DNA from: Peptoanaerobacter stomatis
GTDB taxonomy: Bacteria > Bacillota > Clostridia > Peptostreptococcales > Filifactoraceae
NCBI RefSeq assembly: GCF_000238095.2
Contig: NZ_JH815225.1
Coordinates: forward strand, 584,724-648,723
Length of the DNA: 64,000 nt
Reading direction: 5' to 3'
Positions within the stretch are counted from its first letter, which is position 1. Each line of letters opens with the position of its first letter. This document shows, piece after piece, positions 39,846 to 51,916 of the stretch. The notes below the pieces were generated by a model. The model searched no databases. It was not told the DNA's origin and worked only from the letters and a program-made list of their open reading frames with translations. The position numbers were made by a program, and so were the translations under genes.

Positions 39846-40301
39846 CTATAATAACTTTTCAAAAATAACCCTTTGCTCATTCATTTTCAACGATTCATAT
39901 AAATTTATAGCATTTTTATTAAAAGACCATACCATTAAATCTATTCTTTTTACTTCTAATTCTCTTGCTCTTTTTTCAACTTCATTCATAAGTTTTTTAG
40001 CTATACCGTTATTTCTATATTCTTCTCTTACCACAACAGCATCTATATACATTGTTTTCATGTCAAGCATACCGCTTTTATATTTCACACTTGCAAAGCA
40101 AATCCCTATAACAACACCTTTCTCCTCATATGCTATTGATATTACATCTTTATCTGACAACATTTCCAAAAACGTATTTCTATCATATACACTGTCAACA
40201 TCCATATACATATCAGGTCTTGCATCCACATGAAGTTTATGTAATGAGTTCATCAATTCTGTTATACAGTCATAATCTTCTACTATCATATCTCTTATCA
40301 T
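39846..40301 (-). CDS. GNAT-family N-acetyltransferase
   Basis: A single acetyltransferase domain of about 151 residues. The acetyl-CoA loop is seen in AVVVREEYRNNGIAKKLMNEVEKRA (R/Q-x-x-G-x-A pattern, about 100-125). DLMVWSFNKNAINLYESLKM matches the C-terminal strand-helix of the family. Substrate unknown. The frame is open to 40343, but the GAAAGGAG ribosome site (40313-40320) is eleven bases from the ATG at 40301, so MIRDMIVEDYD is the likely start. It is flanked by gaps on both sides. Confidence 0.82.
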   Translation of the reverse strand: MIRDMIVEDYDCITELMNSLHKLHVDARPDMYMDVDSVYDRNTFLEMLSDKDVISIAYEEKGVVIGICFASVKYKSGMLDMKTMYIDAVVVREEYRNNGIAKKLMNEVEKRARELEVKRIDLMVWSFNKNAINLYESLKMNEQRVIFEKLL

Positions 40302-40600
40302 ATTGTTATACTCTCCTTTCAAATCATCTTTAATGGCAAGCACTAATTAAAATTATATTATAATTTCATATATAAAAAATCATATTTCCCATAAATAGTA
40401 AACATACAAAAAGTAGAGATTTTATATTATGTAATGATATTTAGCATAAACATTTTATTGTTATCCATACAAAAATGCTTTTTTAATTTTCTAATTTAGC
40501 TGAATTTCTTATAATTTTTATTTTTTAAAAATATATTTTCTGGTTCTTGTTAAAATTATAGTAAATTATATTATAATTTGCAAATATTTTTATTTTATGC

Positions 40601-40645
40601 TTGACTTTTATATAAGTATATAATAATATTATTATATACTTATAT
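40601..40645 (+). promoter_or_regulatory. ArsR promoter overlapped by a 36-bp perfect palindrome
   Basis: TTGACT (40601-40606) and TAATAT (40624-40629) are 17 bases apart. Overlaying them is a perfect palindrome, 40610-40645, whose left arm is ATATAAGTATATAATAAT. ArsR/SmtB repressors bind AT-rich dyads at core promoters, so this is a strong candidate autoregulatory operator. The other ~300 bp of this gap show no gene. Confidence 0.65.
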
Positions 40646-40666
40646 TTTTATATTGGAGGGTGTTAT

Positions 40667-40948
40667 ATGATACTAAATCCTGAATTAACAATGGAAAAAG
40701 CTGAGTTGCTTAAACTTTTATCCAATCCGTTAAGATTATGTATTGCACATCAGCTTACACAATATGGTGAATGTAATGTAAGTCATTTTGTAAACTGTAT
40801 GGACGCATCACAACCTGCAATATCACAATCTTTGTCAAAGCTGAAATCTGCAGGAATAGTAAAAATAGACAAAAGAGGCAACGAAGTATTTTATTCTCTC
40901 ACAAATGAGGAAGTAAGAAATATTATAAATTTATTATTTAATGAATAA
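40667..40948 (+). CDS. ArsR/SmtB-family regulator
   Basis: A 93-residue winged helix repressor, with LLSNPLRLCIAHQL in the first helices and the recognition helix in SQPAISQSLSKLKSAGIV. Cysteines C25, C36 and C44 lie before the recognition helix. They do not form the ELCVCDL arsenic motif, so a thiol-redox or persulfide sensor is more likely than a metalloid sensor, especially given the downstream gene; this is inference. A 36-bp palindrome covers its promoter. GGAGGG gives a strong ribosome site. It is 30 bp upstream of the CoA-disulfide reductase fusion gene. Confidence 0.9.
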   Translation: MILNPELTMEKAELLKLLSNPLRLCIAHQLTQYGECNVSHFVNCMDASQPAISQSLSKLKSAGIVKIDKRGNEVFYSLTNEEVRNIINLLFNE

Positions 40949-40978
40949 TTTTAATTTAAGAAAGGACATTTTTATATT

Positions 40979-43456
40979 ATGAAGATTGTAATCATTGGCG
41001 GTGTAGCCGGAGGTGCTACTGCTGCAGCAAGACTTAGAAGACTTGACGAAAAAGCTGAAATCATACTTTTTGAAAAAGGTGCATATGTTTCTTTTGCAAA
41101 TTGCGGACTACCCTATTATATAGGTGGAGAAATAATGTCGAGAGATGCATTATTTGTATCTACAAAGGAAACCATAACTGCAAAATACAATGTAGATATA
41201 AGAGATAAAACCGAAGTTATAAAAATAGATAAAGATAATAAAAAAGTTCTTGCAAAAGATATAGAGACAGGTAAAACATATGAAGAAAACTACGATAAAT
41301 TAATCATATCTACCGGCTCGTCCCCTTTTGTACCTGATTTTGAGGGCAAAGATTTTGACAATGTGTTCACGCTATGGACTATTCCTGATACTGATAGAAT
41401 ATATAATTTTATCAAAAATAATGCTCCTAAAAAAGCTGTGGTTGTAGGCGGAGGATTTATAGGACTCGAAATGGTGGAAAATCTATCAAGAAGAGGAATA
41501 GAAGTTACACTTGTAGAAAAAATGAATCAGGTAATGCCACCACTTGATAAAGATATGGCAAAACTTGCTGAAAATCACTTGGTAGCCAAAAATGTAAATC
41601 TTATGCTTGAAAAAGGTCTTGCAAAAATAACATCGAACGGTAGAAATGTTGTTCTTGATGACGACTCTACAATAGAAACTGATATGGTTATATTGTCAAT
41701 AGGTGTACGTCCTAACTCATCGCTTGCAAAAGATTCAGGACTTAAGTTAAATCAAAGAGGCGGTATAATAGTAGACGAATTCGGACAAACATCTGACAGC
41801 GATATATATGCTGTAGGTGATGTAATAGAAGTGGAAAATTATTTGACAAGAGACAAAACCATGATTCCTCTTGCCGGACCTGCCAACAAACAAGGTAGAG
41901 CTGTATGCGCAAATGTACTTGATTCATATAATAAAGAAGCTTATAAAGGCACAATGGGTACAAGTATTGCTAAAATATTCGACATAACTGTTGCAAGCAC
42001 AGGTTTAAATGAAAAAATGCTAAATGCCAATGGAAAAATATATAAAAAAGATTATTTCATATCATTGGTACACCCAATGAGCCAAGCCGGATATTATCCC
42101 GGAGGTCTTCCAATGACAATAAAACTTATATTTGCAAGCAATAAAAAAATATTAGGTGCACAAATAGTTGGATATACAGGCGTTGACAAGAGAATAGATA
42201 CCATAGCCACTTCAATACATTATGGAGGAGATATATATGATTTAAGTCAGTTAGAGTTGGCATACGCTCCACCATACTCATCTGCAAAAGACCCTGTAAA
42301 TTTTGCCGGATTTGCTGCTTGCAATATATATGAAGGTTTATCATCACCAATGAGATACGAAGAATATCTGAAAAATACAGATAAATACGTTTTGATAGAT
42401 GTAAGAGAAAAAATGGAAATTATGGCAGGAAAAATAGAAGGCTCAATAAATATGCCACTTACCACACTTAGAGAAACCATAAATACTCTTGATAAAAATA
42501 AAGAATATGTCTTACAATGTGCGGTTGGACTAAGAGGATATATAGCAGAAAGAATATTCAAACAAAACGGTTTTACAGCATTTAATCTACTTGGAGGATA
42601 TAGAACATATTGCGATATAACTATGCCTACAAACCTATCATCTAACAGCAATCCTTGTTATTGTTCTACATCTAATGACACAAATCAAGATAAATTTGAA
42701 AGCGAAAAAACTGAAGATGCTCCCACGAAAATAGAAATCTTAAATGTTTGCGGACTTAGCTGTCCGGGACCTATAATGCAAGTTTCTAAATATATAGATA
42801 CTATAAAAGATGGTGAATACGTCAAAGTATTATCAACAGATCCCGGATTTGCAAGGGACATAAAAAGTTGGTGCAACAATACAGGCAATACACTTATATC
42901 ACAAGATATGCAAGAAAATAAATTCATCGCAACAATAAAAAAAGGTAAAGATATTAAACAAAATCAAAATGTTATCACTTCAAACAAAAAAGAAAAGACC
43001 ATGATAATATTTTCAGGTGATTTGGATAAAGCCATTGCGTCTTTCATAATCGCAAACGGTGCCGCATCAATGGGTAACAAAGTAAATATGTTCTTCACTT
43101 TTTGGGGACTTAACATACTCAGAAAAAATGAACATGTGCTTACAAAAAAAGATTTTATAAGCACAATATTCTCATCTATGATGCCGCAGGGCAGTCAAAA
43201 ACTCGGACTTTCAAAAATGAATTTTCTTGGCATGGGTGCAAAGATGATAAGAGGTATAATGAATAAACACAATGTTCCATCATTAGAAGAGCTTATACAA
43301 CAAGCCAAAGAAAACAATATAAAAATATCAGCTTGCCAAATGAGCATGGATCTGATGGGAATAAAATTGGAAGAATTAATCGATGGAGTTGAAGTTGCAG
43401 GTGTAGCATCAATGCTTGATGATAATGACAACAGTAATATGAATTTATTTATTTAA
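40979..43456 (+). CDS. CoA-disulfide/persulfide reductase fused to rhodanese, TusA and DsrE-like domains
   Basis: An 825-residue sulfur-handling fusion. Residues 1-445 are an FAD/NAD(P)H reductase of the CoA-disulfide reductase type, with IIGGVAGGATAAARLRR and active cysteine C42 in SFANCGLPYY. About 455-550 is a rhodanese domain with C514 (QCAVGLRGY). About 585-655 is a TusA domain with C591-GLS-C595-P. About 670-825 is a DsrE/DsrF/DrsH-like domain with C786 (ISACQMSM). All four putative sulfur-carrying cysteines are present, so the protein could pass persulfide sulfur along one chain while reducing CoA persulfide or polysulfide. It is cotranscribed with the ArsR gene, and a bidirectional terminator follows. 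Confidence 0.92.
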   Translation: MKIVIIGGVAGGATAAARLRRLDEKAEIILFEKGAYVSFANCGLPYYIGGEIMSRDALFVSTKETITAKYNVDIRDKTEVIKIDKDNKKVLAKDIETGKTYEENYDKLIISTGSSPFVPDFEGKDFDNVFTLWTIPDTDRIYNFIKNNAPKKAVVVGGGFIGLEMVENLSRRGIEVTLVEKMNQVMPPLDKDMAKLAENHLVAKNVNLMLEKGLAKITSNGRNVVLDDDSTIETDMVILSIGVRPNSSLAKDSGLKLNQRGGIIVDEFGQTSDSDIYAVGDVIEVENYLTRDKTMIPLAGPANKQGRAVCANVLDSYNKEAYKGTMGTSIAKIFDITVASTGLNEKMLNANGKIYKKDYFISLVHPMSQAGYYPGGLPMTIKLIFASNKKILGAQIVGYTGVDKRIDTIATSIHYGGDIYDLSQLELAYAPPYSSAKDPVNFAGFAACNIYEGLSSPMRYEEYLKNTDKYVLIDVREKMEIMAGKIEGSINMPLTTLRETINTLDKNKEYVLQCAVGLRGYIAERIFKQNGFTAFNLLGGYRTYCDITMPTNLSSNSNPCYCSTSNDTNQDKFESEKTEDAPTKIEILNVCGLSCPGPIMQVSKYIDTIKDGEYVKVLSTDPGFARDIKSWCNNTGNTLISQDMQENKFIATIKKGKDIKQNQNVITSNKKEKTMIIFSGDLDKAIASFIIANGAASMGNKVNMFFTFWGLNILRKNEHVLTKKDFISTIFSSMMPQGSQKLGLSKMNFLGMGAKMIRGIMNKHNVPSLEELIQQAKENNIKISACQMSMDLMGIKLEELIDGVEVAGVASMLDDNDNSNMNLFI

Positions 43457-43622
43457 GGTTAATACTATTTTCAAGTAAAATCGTGAATAACTTATATAAC
43501 TATATAACATTAATATAAAATAGTTTATTGGAAAAATTAATTATTATAATTTTCTGTTATTCTATAAGATTTTAATATAATACTAAAATACAATATATTA
43601 AAAAAATTTTACTACAAAATAG

Positions 43623-43670
43623 AAAAAAGTTCCTAAACCATAGTAAACACTATTTTTTAGGAACTTTTTT
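43623..43670. terminator. Bidirectional terminator between the reductase fusion gene and ileS
   Basis: AAAAAAGTTCCTAAA and TTTAGGAACTTTTTT form a long stem with T runs on both strands, suited to two convergent transcripts. Confidence 0.88.
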
Positions 43671-43736
43671 ATTTTATATTCAATCATTTTTAAATATCAT
43701 AGTAGCATTATGCTAAAACATATTTCAATTAATTCA

Positions 43737-46700
43737 CTATGCTTTTTCTATAAATATTTTTGCATTATGACCGTTTAAAACTTCTTCTTTTGCATCAGCA
43801 TTTTCTTTGAACTCTACTATATTAGCCAAGGTTTCGTCTTTTATAAACTCTGTATATGCAGTTATTGCATCTTTTACTTCTTCATCTGATGTATAGCTTA
43901 TAAGTATTTTATCCATCATTTCATAACCGTTATTTTTTCTCATCTGTTGTATCTTTGAGATAAACTCTCTTGCAAAACCTTCTTGTACAAGATCTTTTGT
44001 AAGATTGGTATCCAAAACTATGAATAAATCTCCTTCAGCACCTACATCATAACCTTCTTTAGCTTTTACATTTATCAATAAGTCTTCTTTTGTAAGCACA
44101 GTGTCTTCTCCATTTAAGTTAAAAGTTATCTGTCCTTCTTTTTCTACTGTATCTACTATATTTTTATGATCTGCTGTTTGCAGAACTTGTCCTAACGGTT
44201 TAAGTTTTGCACCCAATTTTTTACCCAATGTTGCAAAATTCGGTTTTATATCATAATTCATAAAGCTTGTTATGTCTTGTGCAAATTCTACATCTTTAAC
44301 GTTCAATTCTTCTTTTATAAGTTCTGTAAGCTCTCCTATAACTTCTTTTATATTCTTATCTATAACTACTTTTGATATAGGCTGTCTTACTTTTATCTTA
44401 GCTTCTTCTCTTGATGCACGTCCTAATTTAACTAAATTTTTAACCATATCCATTTTATTTTCCAAAGCTAAATCTACTTTACTTTGATCAAATACAGGAT
44501 AATATGATATATGCACTGATTTTTCGCCTGTTAGTTTAGTATATATCTCATCTGATATGAATGGTGCAAGTGGTGCTATAAGCTGTGATATACCTTTTAA
44601 TACTTCGTAAGTTGTAAGATATACAGATTTTTTGTCAACTGTCATCTCACTGCCCCAAAATCTTCTTCTGCTTCTTCTTATATACCAATTTGAGAATACG
44701 TCATTGACAAAATCTTGTATTTCTCGTGCAACTTTTGTCATATCATATACATCGAATTGTTTTGTTACATAGTCTACCAAATTGTTGTATTTTGATAATA
44801 ACCATCTATCAAGCTCACTTCTTTGCTCATAAGGAACATCAAATGATTTTATATCTATATCATCAGTATTTGCATATAATATAAAGAAATTGTATATATT
44901 TTTTATAGTGCTGAAAAATTTACTTTGAACTTCTTTTAATCCGTCTATGTCAAATCTTGTAGGTGACCACGCAGGTGATACATATAATAAATACCATCTT
45001 AATGCGTCTGCGCCGTATTGTTCAAACAATTCAAACGGATCTACCGTATTACCTCTTGACTTACTCATTTTTTTGCCGTCTTTATCTAATATGAGGTCAT
45101 TTACGAGCACGTTTTTATAAGGAGAGACTCCTTCTACATATGTCGATATTGCTATCAATGAGTAAAACCAACCTCTTGTTTGGTCTATCCCTTCACATAT
45201 AAAGTCTGCAGGGAAATTTTCTTTAAATGTTTCTTTATTTTCAAACGGATAGTGTAATTGTGCATATGGCATTGAACCTGAATCAAACCAGCAGTCTATT
45301 ACGTCTTTTACTCTCTTCATAGGCTTTTTACAATGAGGACACTCTATTGTAACATCATCTACATAAGGTCTGTGAAGCTCTATGTTATCATCTATATCTT
45401 CGATTGCTTTTTGTGCCAATTCAGCTCTTGAACCTATGGATTCTTTATGCCCACATTCATCGCACACCCATATATTAAGTGGTGTTCCCCAATATCTTGA
45501 ACGTGATATTGCCCAGTCATTCAGATTTTCAAGCCAGTTTCCGAATCTTTTTTCTCCTACAAATTGTGGAAACCAATTTACTGAATTGTTGTTTTCTATC
45601 AATTTTTCTTTGAATTTTGTAACTTCTATATAATAGCTCGGTTTTGCATAATATATAAGCGGAGTTTGGCATCTCCAACAATGCGGATAATTATGCTCCA
45701 TTTTTTCTTTTGCATATATTTTATTTTCTTTTGCAAGATATTTTATTATATCCACTTGCAAATCATCATCTGTAACATGTCTGCCTTTCCATATCGTATC
45801 TGTATATTTCCCGTCATCTCCTACAGGATTTAAAACAGGCATATTGTATTGCTTGCTTACTTTGTAGTCATCTTCACCGAATGCAGGTGCAGTATGAACT
45901 ATACCTGTACCGTCTTCTGTAGTTACGAAATCTCCAAGCATTACGAAAAAAGCTTTGTCTTTTGTATGAACAAAAGGCATTAACTGCTCGTACTCTTGAT
46001 ATTCCAAATCTTTTCCTGTTATTTCTTCAAGCACTTCATAATTTTCTTTTAATACTTTTGGTGCAAGAGTTTTTGACAGGTAATATATTTCATCATCTTG
46101 TTTTGCTTTGATATATGTTTCTGTAGGAGAAACAGTAAGACCTACGTTAGCAGCTAATGTCCACGGAGTTGTTGTCCATGCTAAAAAATATTCGTTATCT
46201 GTTCCTTTTTTCTTGAACTTCGCTATCAATGTATTTGTCTTTACCATTTTATAGCCTTGTGCAACTTCGTGTGATGCAAGCCCTGTTCCACATCTTGGAC
46301 AATACGGTAATATCTTATGTCCTTCATATATCAAACCGTCTTTGAACATTTTATCCAATATCCACCACTCTGATTCTATATAATCATTGTTAAGTGTTAT
46401 ATATGGATTGTCCAAATCTATGAGATATCCCATCCTTGTAGTCATTTTTCTCCAAAGGCTCTCATATTCAAAAACAGACTCTTTACAGGATTCATTGAAT
46501 TTTTGTATACCGTATTTTTCTATATCTTGTTTTGATGAAAGATTTAATTTTTTTTCTACTTCTATTTCAACAGGAAGACCGTGTGTATCCCAACCTGCCT
46601 TTCTTTTTACCTGATAACCTTTCATCGTTTTATATCTGCATACAGAATCTTTTAATGTTCTTGCTATAACGTGGTGTATACCGGGTTTGCCGTTTGCTGT

Positions 46701-46844
46701 CGGTGGACCTTCATAGAATATAAATTTTTCTTTACCCTCTCTATCCTTGATACTCAAATCTAAGAGATCTATCTCTTCCCATTTTTGTATTATCTTATCT
46801 TCATTATTACTTACACTTTTGTCATAAAGACTTTCAAACTTCAA
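43737..46844 (-). CDS. ileS: Isoleucyl-tRNA synthetase, type 2 (IleS2-like)
   Basis: Charges tRNA-Ile. The 1035-residue class I enzyme has the HIGH-region motif as GKPGIHHV (about 50-57) and KMSKS at about 592-596. An editing domain (WTTTPWTLAANVGLT) lies in between. Cys pairs occur in CPRCG, CDECG and CPHCKKP, and the tail lacks the bacterial IleS1 zinc knuckle. FYEGPPTANGKPGIHHV and RKAGWDTHGLPVEIEVE point to the IleS2 lineage, which includes mupirocin-tolerant enzymes; the drug phenotype is not shown. It is preceded by a T-box leader, so expression should respond to uncharged tRNA-Ile. CCTCCTT gives the ribosome site in antisense. Confidence 0.95.
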   Translation of the reverse strand: MKFESLYDKSVSNNEDKIIQKWEEIDLLDLSIKDREGKEKFIFYEGPPTANGKPGIHHVIARTLKDSVCRYKTMKGYQVKRKAGWDTHGLPVEIEVEKKLNLSSKQDIEKYGIQKFNESCKESVFEYESLWRKMTTRMGYLIDLDNPYITLNNDYIESEWWILDKMFKDGLIYEGHKILPYCPRCGTGLASHEVAQGYKMVKTNTLIAKFKKKGTDNEYFLAWTTTPWTLAANVGLTVSPTETYIKAKQDDEIYYLSKTLAPKVLKENYEVLEEITGKDLEYQEYEQLMPFVHTKDKAFFVMLGDFVTTEDGTGIVHTAPAFGEDDYKVSKQYNMPVLNPVGDDGKYTDTIWKGRHVTDDDLQVDIIKYLAKENKIYAKEKMEHNYPHCWRCQTPLIYYAKPSYYIEVTKFKEKLIENNNSVNWFPQFVGEKRFGNWLENLNDWAISRSRYWGTPLNIWVCDECGHKESIGSRAELAQKAIEDIDDNIELHRPYVDDVTIECPHCKKPMKRVKDVIDCWFDSGSMPYAQLHYPFENKETFKENFPADFICEGIDQTRGWFYSLIAISTYVEGVSPYKNVLVNDLILDKDGKKMSKSRGNTVDPFELFEQYGADALRWYLLYVSPAWSPTRFDIDGLKEVQSKFFSTIKNIYNFFILYANTDDIDIKSFDVPYEQRSELDRWLLSKYNNLVDYVTKQFDVYDMTKVAREIQDFVNDVFSNWYIRRSRRRFWGSEMTVDKKSVYLTTYEVLKGISQLIAPLAPFISDEIYTKLTGEKSVHISYYPVFDQSKVDLALENKMDMVKNLVKLGRASREEAKIKVRQPISKVVIDKNIKEVIGELTELIKEELNVKDVEFAQDITSFMNYDIKPNFATLGKKLGAKLKPLGQVLQTADHKNIVDTVEKEGQITFNLNGEDTVLTKEDLLINVKAKEGYDVGAEGDLFIVLDTNLTKDLVQEGFAREFISKIQQMRKNNGYEMMDKILISYTSDEEVKDAITAYTEFIKDETLANIVEFKENADAKEEVLNGHNAKIFIEKA

Positions 46845-51221: not shown

Positions 51222-51657
51222 ATTAAAACTCCTTTTTCATTTGTTACAATTTGTAATTTATTATACTACAATTTTTTACAAAAAGCAAGTTTTTTATAAA
51301 ACTATTATTAACATTCTGTTTATAAATATTATAATACATCATTGTAATCCGGCACAAAAATATTGAAATTTCAATATTTTTTACAAAATATTCTTATATA
51401 GCTTTTATACTATAAAAATATTTATTTTACATTTTAAAACTTATTAATCTTAACTATTTTTATAAAAATGTAATATTTTGTTGTAATAAAATTTTAGTAT
51501 TAAAATCTGCTAAAAATCAATAAACTTTAAAAATAAAACCATATATTTGAAAAAAATAATATAAAACTAAACCATATTAAAAAAATATCTATTTTTAATT
51601 GGATATTAGTATAAATTATATTTCAAAAATATATAAAAATATTTTTTTCATATAGTA
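51222..51657. other. AT-rich intergenic region, nothing seen
   Basis: The divergent region between the lytic transglycosylase gene and the clpB promoter is almost entirely A and T, with no gene, hairpin or repeat that I can support. Confidence 0.55.
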
Positions 51658-51719: not shown

Positions 51720-51916
51720 TAAAAAGAATTTTATTAAGATATCAACATTTTATTAAAAAGAAAATATCATTATTAATTTTATTTGTAAAATATTATTCTA
51801 TTTATAAATAAATTTTGACATTTTTTATTTTAATATATAGATTAAATTTTAACTTGAAAAAATAATTAAATTATATGAGATTTACTAAAAAATCTTTAAT
51901 AATAGGAGGTTTTGTT

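Follow-up and report, generated by a model that had tools for sequence, protein, structure and literature searches.

What does a repressor of the ArsR family sense when the gene beside it encodes an enzyme of sulfur chemistry? The question is raised by a 64,000-nucleotide (nt) stretch of the Peptoanaerobacter stomatis genome (NCBI RefSeq assembly GCF_000238095.2, contig NZ_JH815225.1, positions 584,724 to 648,723 of the forward strand; hereafter the window, from whose first letter all positions are counted). Here, an ArsR-family gene and, after 30 nt, a gene for a fusion of coenzyme A (CoA)-disulfide reductase (CoADR), rhodanese, TusA, and DsrE-type domains form a two-gene unit on the plus strand, behind a perfect 36-bp palindrome. 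The answer that we consider probable, while leaving real room for doubt, is a defence that is devoted to excess sulfane sulfur and regulates itself, in which sulfane sulfur would release the ArsR repressor at its cysteines C25 and C44. The parts of the unit are listed below with the basis of each assignment (ORF, open reading frame; aa, amino acids).

40601..40606, + strand: −35-like hexamer TTGACT, candidate only (consensus scan)
40610..40645, no strand: proposed operator, perfect 36-bp palindrome (inverted-repeat search, shuffles, genome scan)
40618..40637, no strand: conserved 20-bp operator core, ATATNNNAATATTNNNATAT (comparison with relatives)
40624..40629, + strand: −10-like hexamer TAATAT, 17 nt after TTGACT and inside the palindrome
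40667..40948, + strand: ArsR-family regulator, 93 aa (ORF list, Pfam, NCBIfam, alignment, predicted fold)
40739-40741, 40772-40774, and 40796-40798, + strand: codons of ArsR cysteines C25, C36, and C44
40979..43456, + strand: CoADR-rhodanese-TusA-DrsE_2 fusion, 825 aa (Pfam, solved relatives, alignment)
40979..42286, + strand: reductase part (FAD/NAD-dependent) including the dimerisation domain, residues 1-436 (C42 codon 41102-41104)
42371..42610, + strand: rhodanese domain, residues 465-544, loop CAVGLR (C514 codon 42518-42520)
42737..42943, + strand: TusA domain, residues 587-655 (C595 codon 42761-42763)
42989..43450, + strand: DrsE_2 domain, residues 671-824 (C786 codon 43334-43336)

The arms of the palindrome (40610-40627 and 40628-40645) are 18 + 18 nt long, 100% complementary, and separated by no loop. 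No other gapless palindrome in the 64 kb is as long; the runner-up has a half-length of 13 (51356-51381). A half-length of 18 was reached by none of 20,000 dinucleotide shuffles of the 323-bp intergenic region, which is 85% AT (longest, 15), and shuffling the whole window 100 times gave at most 12, so that a chance product of AT-rich sequence can be dismissed. The 36 bp occur once in the 2.33-Mb genome, allowing up to three mismatches. The original prediction of a perfect palindrome overlaying a promoter was therefore correct as to the palindrome; the candidate promoter, TTGACT-17-TAATAT, agrees with the consensus at 9 of 12 positions and has its spacer and −10 covered, and it is rated as plausible only, because the stretch holds 26 promoter-like sites against 22.9 in shuffles. 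A terminator or attenuator was considered and discarded, since the upstream ORF is divergent, the palindrome is loopless, and the −10 is overlapped.

To which genes, and to which kind of regulator, does such an operator belong? In a class survey of 196 genomes, with counts made by hand from coordinates, 133 had an ArsR match at 1e-12; the scores drop from 108 to 92 bits with 49 matches above the gap, and in another set of relatives two sequences, L019 and L022, score 107 and 102 bits (L and G are our handles for loci and genomes). A match to the full fusion, reaching residue 825, was found in 35 of the 196 (one begins at residue 111). Co-occurrence of regulator and fusion had been proposed as a check; a high-scoring ArsR adjoins 24 of these 35 fusions, and the other 11 are taken up below. 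In an enlarged set scored against the profile, 82 distinct sequences exceed 100 bits and 37 lie between 50 and 92 bits, the latter being a sample among the matches listed. A CoADR or DsrE-type gene adjoins 67 of the 82 (downstream in 57, upstream in 10), which should not be read as a linkage rate, many of the 82 having been fetched for the adjoining enzyme.

It is among these enzyme-linked regulators that the cysteines can be sorted. The window ArsR has three cysteines, as had been noted together with the lack of an arsenic motif; both observations stand, and the three residues, at positions 25, 36, and 44, are not equivalent. All 33 rows in the first set of enzyme-linked ArsR sequences have C25 and C44, and 15 of them have C36; in the enlarged set, both C25 and C44 are kept in 66/67, and C36, found in 41/67, is optional and was dropped as a part of the conserved switch. 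The pair occurs in none of the 37 lower-scoring proteins, two of which adjoin a CoADR gene, a contrast that is partly built in, the profile having been made from enzyme-linked members. At 80% non-redundancy the pair is found in 54/54 linked, 9/13 unlinked, and 0/36 lower-scoring sequences. The predicted model puts C25 in helix 2 (residues 21-33); C44 follows directly on helix 3 (38-43), where the chain turns towards the next helix (49-61). As a separate observation, L139 (G145:C1:1601845-1604078) places a lower-scoring, CVC-type ArsR next to a CoADR-like gene, matched over 449 aa; the same genome carries the fusion with an ArsR of its own.

Relatives share the centre of the palindrome, approximately 20 bp, and the entire 36 bp was rejected as a conserved unit. 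The core common to the upstream regions of enzyme-linked ArsR genes reads ATAT-N3-AATATT-N3-ATAT (20 bp). It is exact before 23 of 49 linked genes (shuffles, 0) and present with at most one mismatch before 36 of 49 (shuffles, 0.38), an in-sample count, as the motif was drawn by eye on these same genes (50 non-redundant genes, minus one with too little upstream sequence). The upstream sequences of nine genomes in which the fusion comes first and the ArsR gene follows took no part in motif discovery; here, the core precedes the fusion, with at most one mismatch, in 8/9 (0.07 expected), the nine falling in four families (f32, f36, f48, and f63) and not being nine independent cases. Where no subfamily ArsR adjoins the fusion, the core is found, again with at most one mismatch, in 2/20 (0.08 expected), and both positive genomes (G085 and G207) have a subfamily ArsR elsewhere. 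Its presence before 5 of 14 non-redundant unlinked high-scoring ArsR genes (0.08 expected) fits self-regulation. The window genome contains one exact core, and a reversed control pattern likewise occurs once on each strand; the exact-core scan, which degenerate sites would escape, thus gave no sign of a wide regulon. Conserved linkage and conserved operator together strongly suggest, from sequence comparison, that the ArsR represses its own gene and the fusion, and they strongly support the earlier proposal that it does so through the palindrome.

In the product of the second gene, Pfam places Pyr_redox_2 at residues 1-305 and the dimerisation domain at 331-436, followed by rhodanese, TusA, and DrsE_2 as listed, in agreement with the four-domain fusion that had been described, except that the last domain is more precisely DrsE_2 (PF13686, 204 bits against a cut-off of 25) than a generic DsrE. 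Across 30 aligned homologues, C42, C514, C595, and C786 are invariant, as one would expect from the claim that each domain has its own cysteine; C591, the other TusA residue that had been named, is not. The rhodanese loop is CX4R in 30/30. The best solved relative is the Bacillus anthracis CoADR-rhodanese (PDB 3icr, 7.3e-168; residues 2-547 aligned, that is, two of the four parts), followed by the Enterococcus faecalis CoA-persulfide reductase (CoAPR; 8a56) and the 3nta group, and none extends past residue 547. C42 in the reductase part and the cysteine of the rhodanese part place the protein among the CoADR-rhodanese/CoAPR enzymes, and by analogy it would reduce CoA persulfide or polysulfide with NAD(P)H. 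It scores under the CoA-disulfide reductase equivalog TIGR03385 (489.5 against 578.8 bits), and its final domain under the DsrE2 sulfur carrier equivalog NF047629 (84 against 210 bits). In the predicted model (mean predicted local distance difference test, pLDDT, 81.5), confidence is low for the linkers 552-583 and 659-669, which fits mobile TusA and DsrE-type domains.

The four-domain order in a single chain is shared with BF638R_0572 of Bacteroides fragilis, which has the same domains at nearly the same intervals (PMC6158253, Table 3); the enzyme type is, in other words, already known. Elsewhere, the same parts are encoded by two or three adjoining genes (L047, L051, L054, L055, L071, and Paenibacillus sp. 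37). In L041 (G010:C42), the fusion is divided between two ORFs, one of 651 aa (CoADR-rhodanese-TusA) and one of 151 aa (DsrE-type), and in two genomes a second CoADR-like match lies directly behind the fusion on the same strand (G170:C159:4281-5696 and G215:C71:26510-27868).

The main argument that the ArsR answers a sulfur-related signal is one of analogy, namely the exchange of regulators beside the same enzyme. In E. faecalis, CoAPR is controlled by CstR, a CsoR-family reactive-sulfur sensor with two cysteines (PMC9405070); C42 and C508 of CoAPR match C42 and C514 of the fusion, although CoAPR lacks TusA and DsrE parts. In B. fragilis, the promoter of the four-domain fusion is bound and repressed by BmoR, which is encoded in the same operon (PMC6158253), a likeness to the arrangement proposed here; BmoR, however, belongs to the MarR family, its gene follows that of the enzyme, and the available part of that paper describes no cysteine switch for it. 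In our own set, a CsoR-family gene lies downstream of the fusion in L029 and L038 and upstream in L168 and L169, a MarR-family gene lies upstream in Dysgonomonas (L072) and Parabacteroides (L164), a divergent HxlR-family gene accompanies it in Fusobacterium (L167), and no regulator was recognised beside several other fusions without this ArsR. L029 (G058:C48) also has a glutaredoxin-like gene upstream, with all three genes on the same strand. A CstR in the window genome was discounted, as its single PF02583 match adjoins a P-type ATPase-like ORF and is read as serving copper handling. The sulfur-enzyme target, the CsoR and MarR regulators in the place of the ArsR, and the conserved cysteine pair make release by sulfane sulfur through C25 and C44, and with it the persulfide sensing suggested earlier, a moderately supported proposal.

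The cycle that we envisage is as follows. An ArsR dimer in the thiol form would bind the palindrome over the spacer and −10, so that neither its own gene nor the fusion is transcribed. When persulfide or polysulfide builds up, the cysteines in helix 2 (C25) and where helix 3 ends, next to the recognition helix (C44), would be modified, most likely by being bridged by sulfur, and the dimer would leave the DNA. The DsrE-type, TusA, and rhodanese domains of the fusion could then take up sulfane sulfur at C786, C595, and C514 (the order being left free) and pass it on to C42, next to the FAD (flavin adenine dinucleotide), in the form of CoA persulfide or polysulfide; reduction by NAD(P)H would, as with CoAPR and its relatives, yield H2S and a free thiol.

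How does this regulator compare with ArsR proteins of known signal? It belongs to the ArsR/SmtB superfamily (PF01022, 31.6 bits, cut-off 22; NF033788, 77.7 bits, cut-off 55) and falls below the named equivalogs BigR (56.8/155 bits), PagR (53.6/170), and TsoR (41.6/115). With a 25-member profile, the best solved relatives are PagR (1.9e-25), BigR (1.2e-19), 8qkf (7.2e-19), and YgaV (1.7e-18), with weaker matches to CadC (2.7e-11) and RexT (5.3e-8); the stretch aligned with PagR (PDB 2zkz), the closest of these, lacks C25 and C44. The fold was predicted with a mean pLDDT of 94.2, and SqrR, HlyU, BigR, and YgaV head its comparison (VIA rows, Z 15.2-14.6). Likeness to these four extends to fold, sequence proximity, and a sulfur-related target. 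In a published sequence similarity network (PMC10509353), the persulfide sensors SqrR, BigR, and HlyU form cluster 4, with a cysteine pair in helices 2 and 5, classical metal and metalloid sensors form cluster 1, and RexT-type peroxide sensors form cluster 6.

The window ArsR has the hallmark cysteines of none of these. The helix 3 region that holds the classical CXC motif reads ECNVSHFVNCMD, without that motif, and no vicinal cysteines of the RexT type occur anywhere in the protein. The helix-2 position of BigR C42 and SqrR C41 is occupied by H28, with C25 three residues, or one helical turn, earlier; the helix-5 cysteine (BigR C108, SqrR C107) has no counterpart, there being no cysteine after C44, and the last residue, 93, aligns with BigR 106 and SqrR 105. 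The second cysteine thus lies after helix 3 and not in helix 5. Binding sites allow a further comparison: that of SqrR is given as ATTC-N8-GAAT (PMC9774250), and its spacing is also found in some relatives here (e.g., L101).

Several observations weigh against a dedicated sulfane-sulfur sensor and should be kept in mind. The positions of C25 and C44 differ from those in every persulfide-sensing ArsR compared, as alignment indicates, and in the fold comparison all VIA rows as far as CadC (14.3) count as tied, being spread over about one Z unit. Among the enzyme-linked regulators, L128 is an exception, with F at the C25 position. The pair is kept by 11 of the 15 unlinked members, for which no CoADR gene was found adjoining (two of them lie near contig ends); the other four lack C44 and one of these also C25. 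The core, with at most one mismatch, precedes 4 of the 37 lower-scoring ArsR genes (0.12 expected), whose proteins have a CVC stretch. It was accordingly given up as exclusive to the C25/C44 subfamily, being carried also by some lower-scoring, mostly CXC-type genes, and by this comparison it is a mark of ArsR binding in these bacteria and not of the signal.

The last point against concerns the 11 of 35 full fusions without an adjoining ArsR of the high-scoring group. Three of these genomes (G085, G207, and G115) have a high-scoring ArsR elsewhere, and the sequence upstream of the fusion differs from the core by 0, 1, and 2 mismatches; G079 also has one elsewhere, with a CsoR-family gene beside the fusion and 5 mismatches, and the remaining seven, which have no high-scoring ArsR, show 3-6. 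These numbers are small, and the pattern, suggestive of action in trans, was spotted after the fact. In G085, the contig with the ArsR starts with a TusA-DsrE end, perhaps of a second fusion.

Could the pair instead be a general thiol-redox switch? In that case oxygen, peroxide, or disulfide stress would join C25 and C44 in a plain disulfide, and the main task of the fusion would be to keep CoA and protein thiols reduced. Joint loss of the B. fragilis fusion and bmoR does raise sensitivity to diamide (PMC6158253). Against this reading, the enzyme linked here has three sulfur-transfer domains beside its reductase, and RexT of Nostoc, an ArsR-fold thiol switch that uses helix 3, is a far weaker sequence match than BigR and YgaV and has its cysteines, Cys40-Cys41, adjacent within that helix (PMC8960804). 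The target of RexT is a thioredoxin gene. We judge this explanation unlikely.

A sensor of metals or metalloids, with C25, C36, and C44 binding As(III), Sb(III), or Cd(II) and the fusion serving metalloid resistance, is highly improbable. In its favour, a CoADR-rhodanese gene with a proposed arsenic role lies in the ars cluster of Fusibacter sp. 3D3 (PMC5525254, PMC9751042), the operator core is common to some CXC-type ArsR genes, and one regulator with the pair, L006 (G042:C1), has an ACR3-like transporter gene 413 nt downstream on the same strand, a weak match of only 90.7 bits against the acr3 cut-off of 282.8. Against this, C36 is missing in 26/67 enzyme-linked regulators, there is no CXC, no ACR3 match was found in the window genome, and the rhodanese loop is of the shorter kind (CX4R throughout) that PMC5525254 assigns to sulfur and selenium, the longer being assigned to arsenic and phosphorus.

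Hardly any credence is due to sulfur delivery, in which the fusion would feed thiolated tRNA or cofactors through TusA and the ArsR would set the supply: thiosulfate is the form in which DsrE and TusA proteins of Metallosphaera cuprina pass sulfur on (PMC4175335), and besides the fusion the genome has no other DrsE_2 match and one other TusA match, but both other genomes of the genus lack a fusion match at 1e-60, which would be odd for a supply route that is essential, the NAD(P)H-FAD reductase module is the largest part of the fusion, and the regulation known for homologous enzymes responds to excess (PMC9405070, PMC6158253).

Returning to sulfane-sulfur sensing, we hold it to be an even bet that the C25/C44 subfamily achieves it on the ArsR fold in yet another, separate way, taking in Clostridia the place that CstR and BmoR have elsewhere. 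With the second cysteine at the turn between helices 3 and 4 and not in helix 5, sulfur bridging would act on the DNA-reading unit directly, and CstR (CsoR family, enterococci), BmoR (MarR family, Bacteroides), and the clostridial ArsR would be unrelated repressors converging on one type of reductase. The novelty apparently lies in the regulator, a variant attached to a known enzyme type: no description of an ArsR beside this four-domain enzyme was recognised in searches of an open-licence library, a scope outside which most subscription papers fall. A Caldicellulosiruptor operon with TusA and CoA-disulfide reductase has been assigned to Rex (PMC8579813), and what is available of PMC9918477, PMC9431562, and PMC9774590 was not decisive. 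If correct, the proposal names a sulfane-sulfur sensor of many anaerobic Clostridia, gives its operator, and predicts its two key cysteines; it would also mean that one type of detoxifying enzyme has been captured by unrelated repressor families and that a single repressor fold carries its thiol switch in no fewer than three different arrangements. The regulator has a dithiol that can be put to the test and an operator, and it can be compared directly with CstR, BmoR, and SqrR.

The unit is patchily distributed, as neither gene was matched, at the thresholds used, in the two other genomes of the genus, yet Peptoniphilus records match at up to 64%. Named carriers of the gene pair include Peptoniphilus, Lagierella, Catonella, Erysipelotrichaceae, and Peptoclostridium acidaminophilum (DSM 3953, ArsR gene EAL2_RS12505). 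The other TusA match in the window genome (L180, G000:C1:1231394-1231597) lies in a 229-aa reading frame with more sequence beyond the TusA part.

By eye, the neighbours are an acetyltransferase-like ORF on the 5' side (39846-40343, minus strand, divergent) and an isoleucyl-tRNA synthetase-like ORF on the 3' side (43737-46844, minus strand, convergent). The runner-up palindrome noted above is also perfect (26 bp) and lies in an AT-rich stretch just upstream of an ORF at 51875. Between the convergent fusion and its 3' neighbour, an imperfect 43-nt inverted repeat at 43602-43691 (74% complementary, 4-nt loop) is perhaps a two-way terminator.

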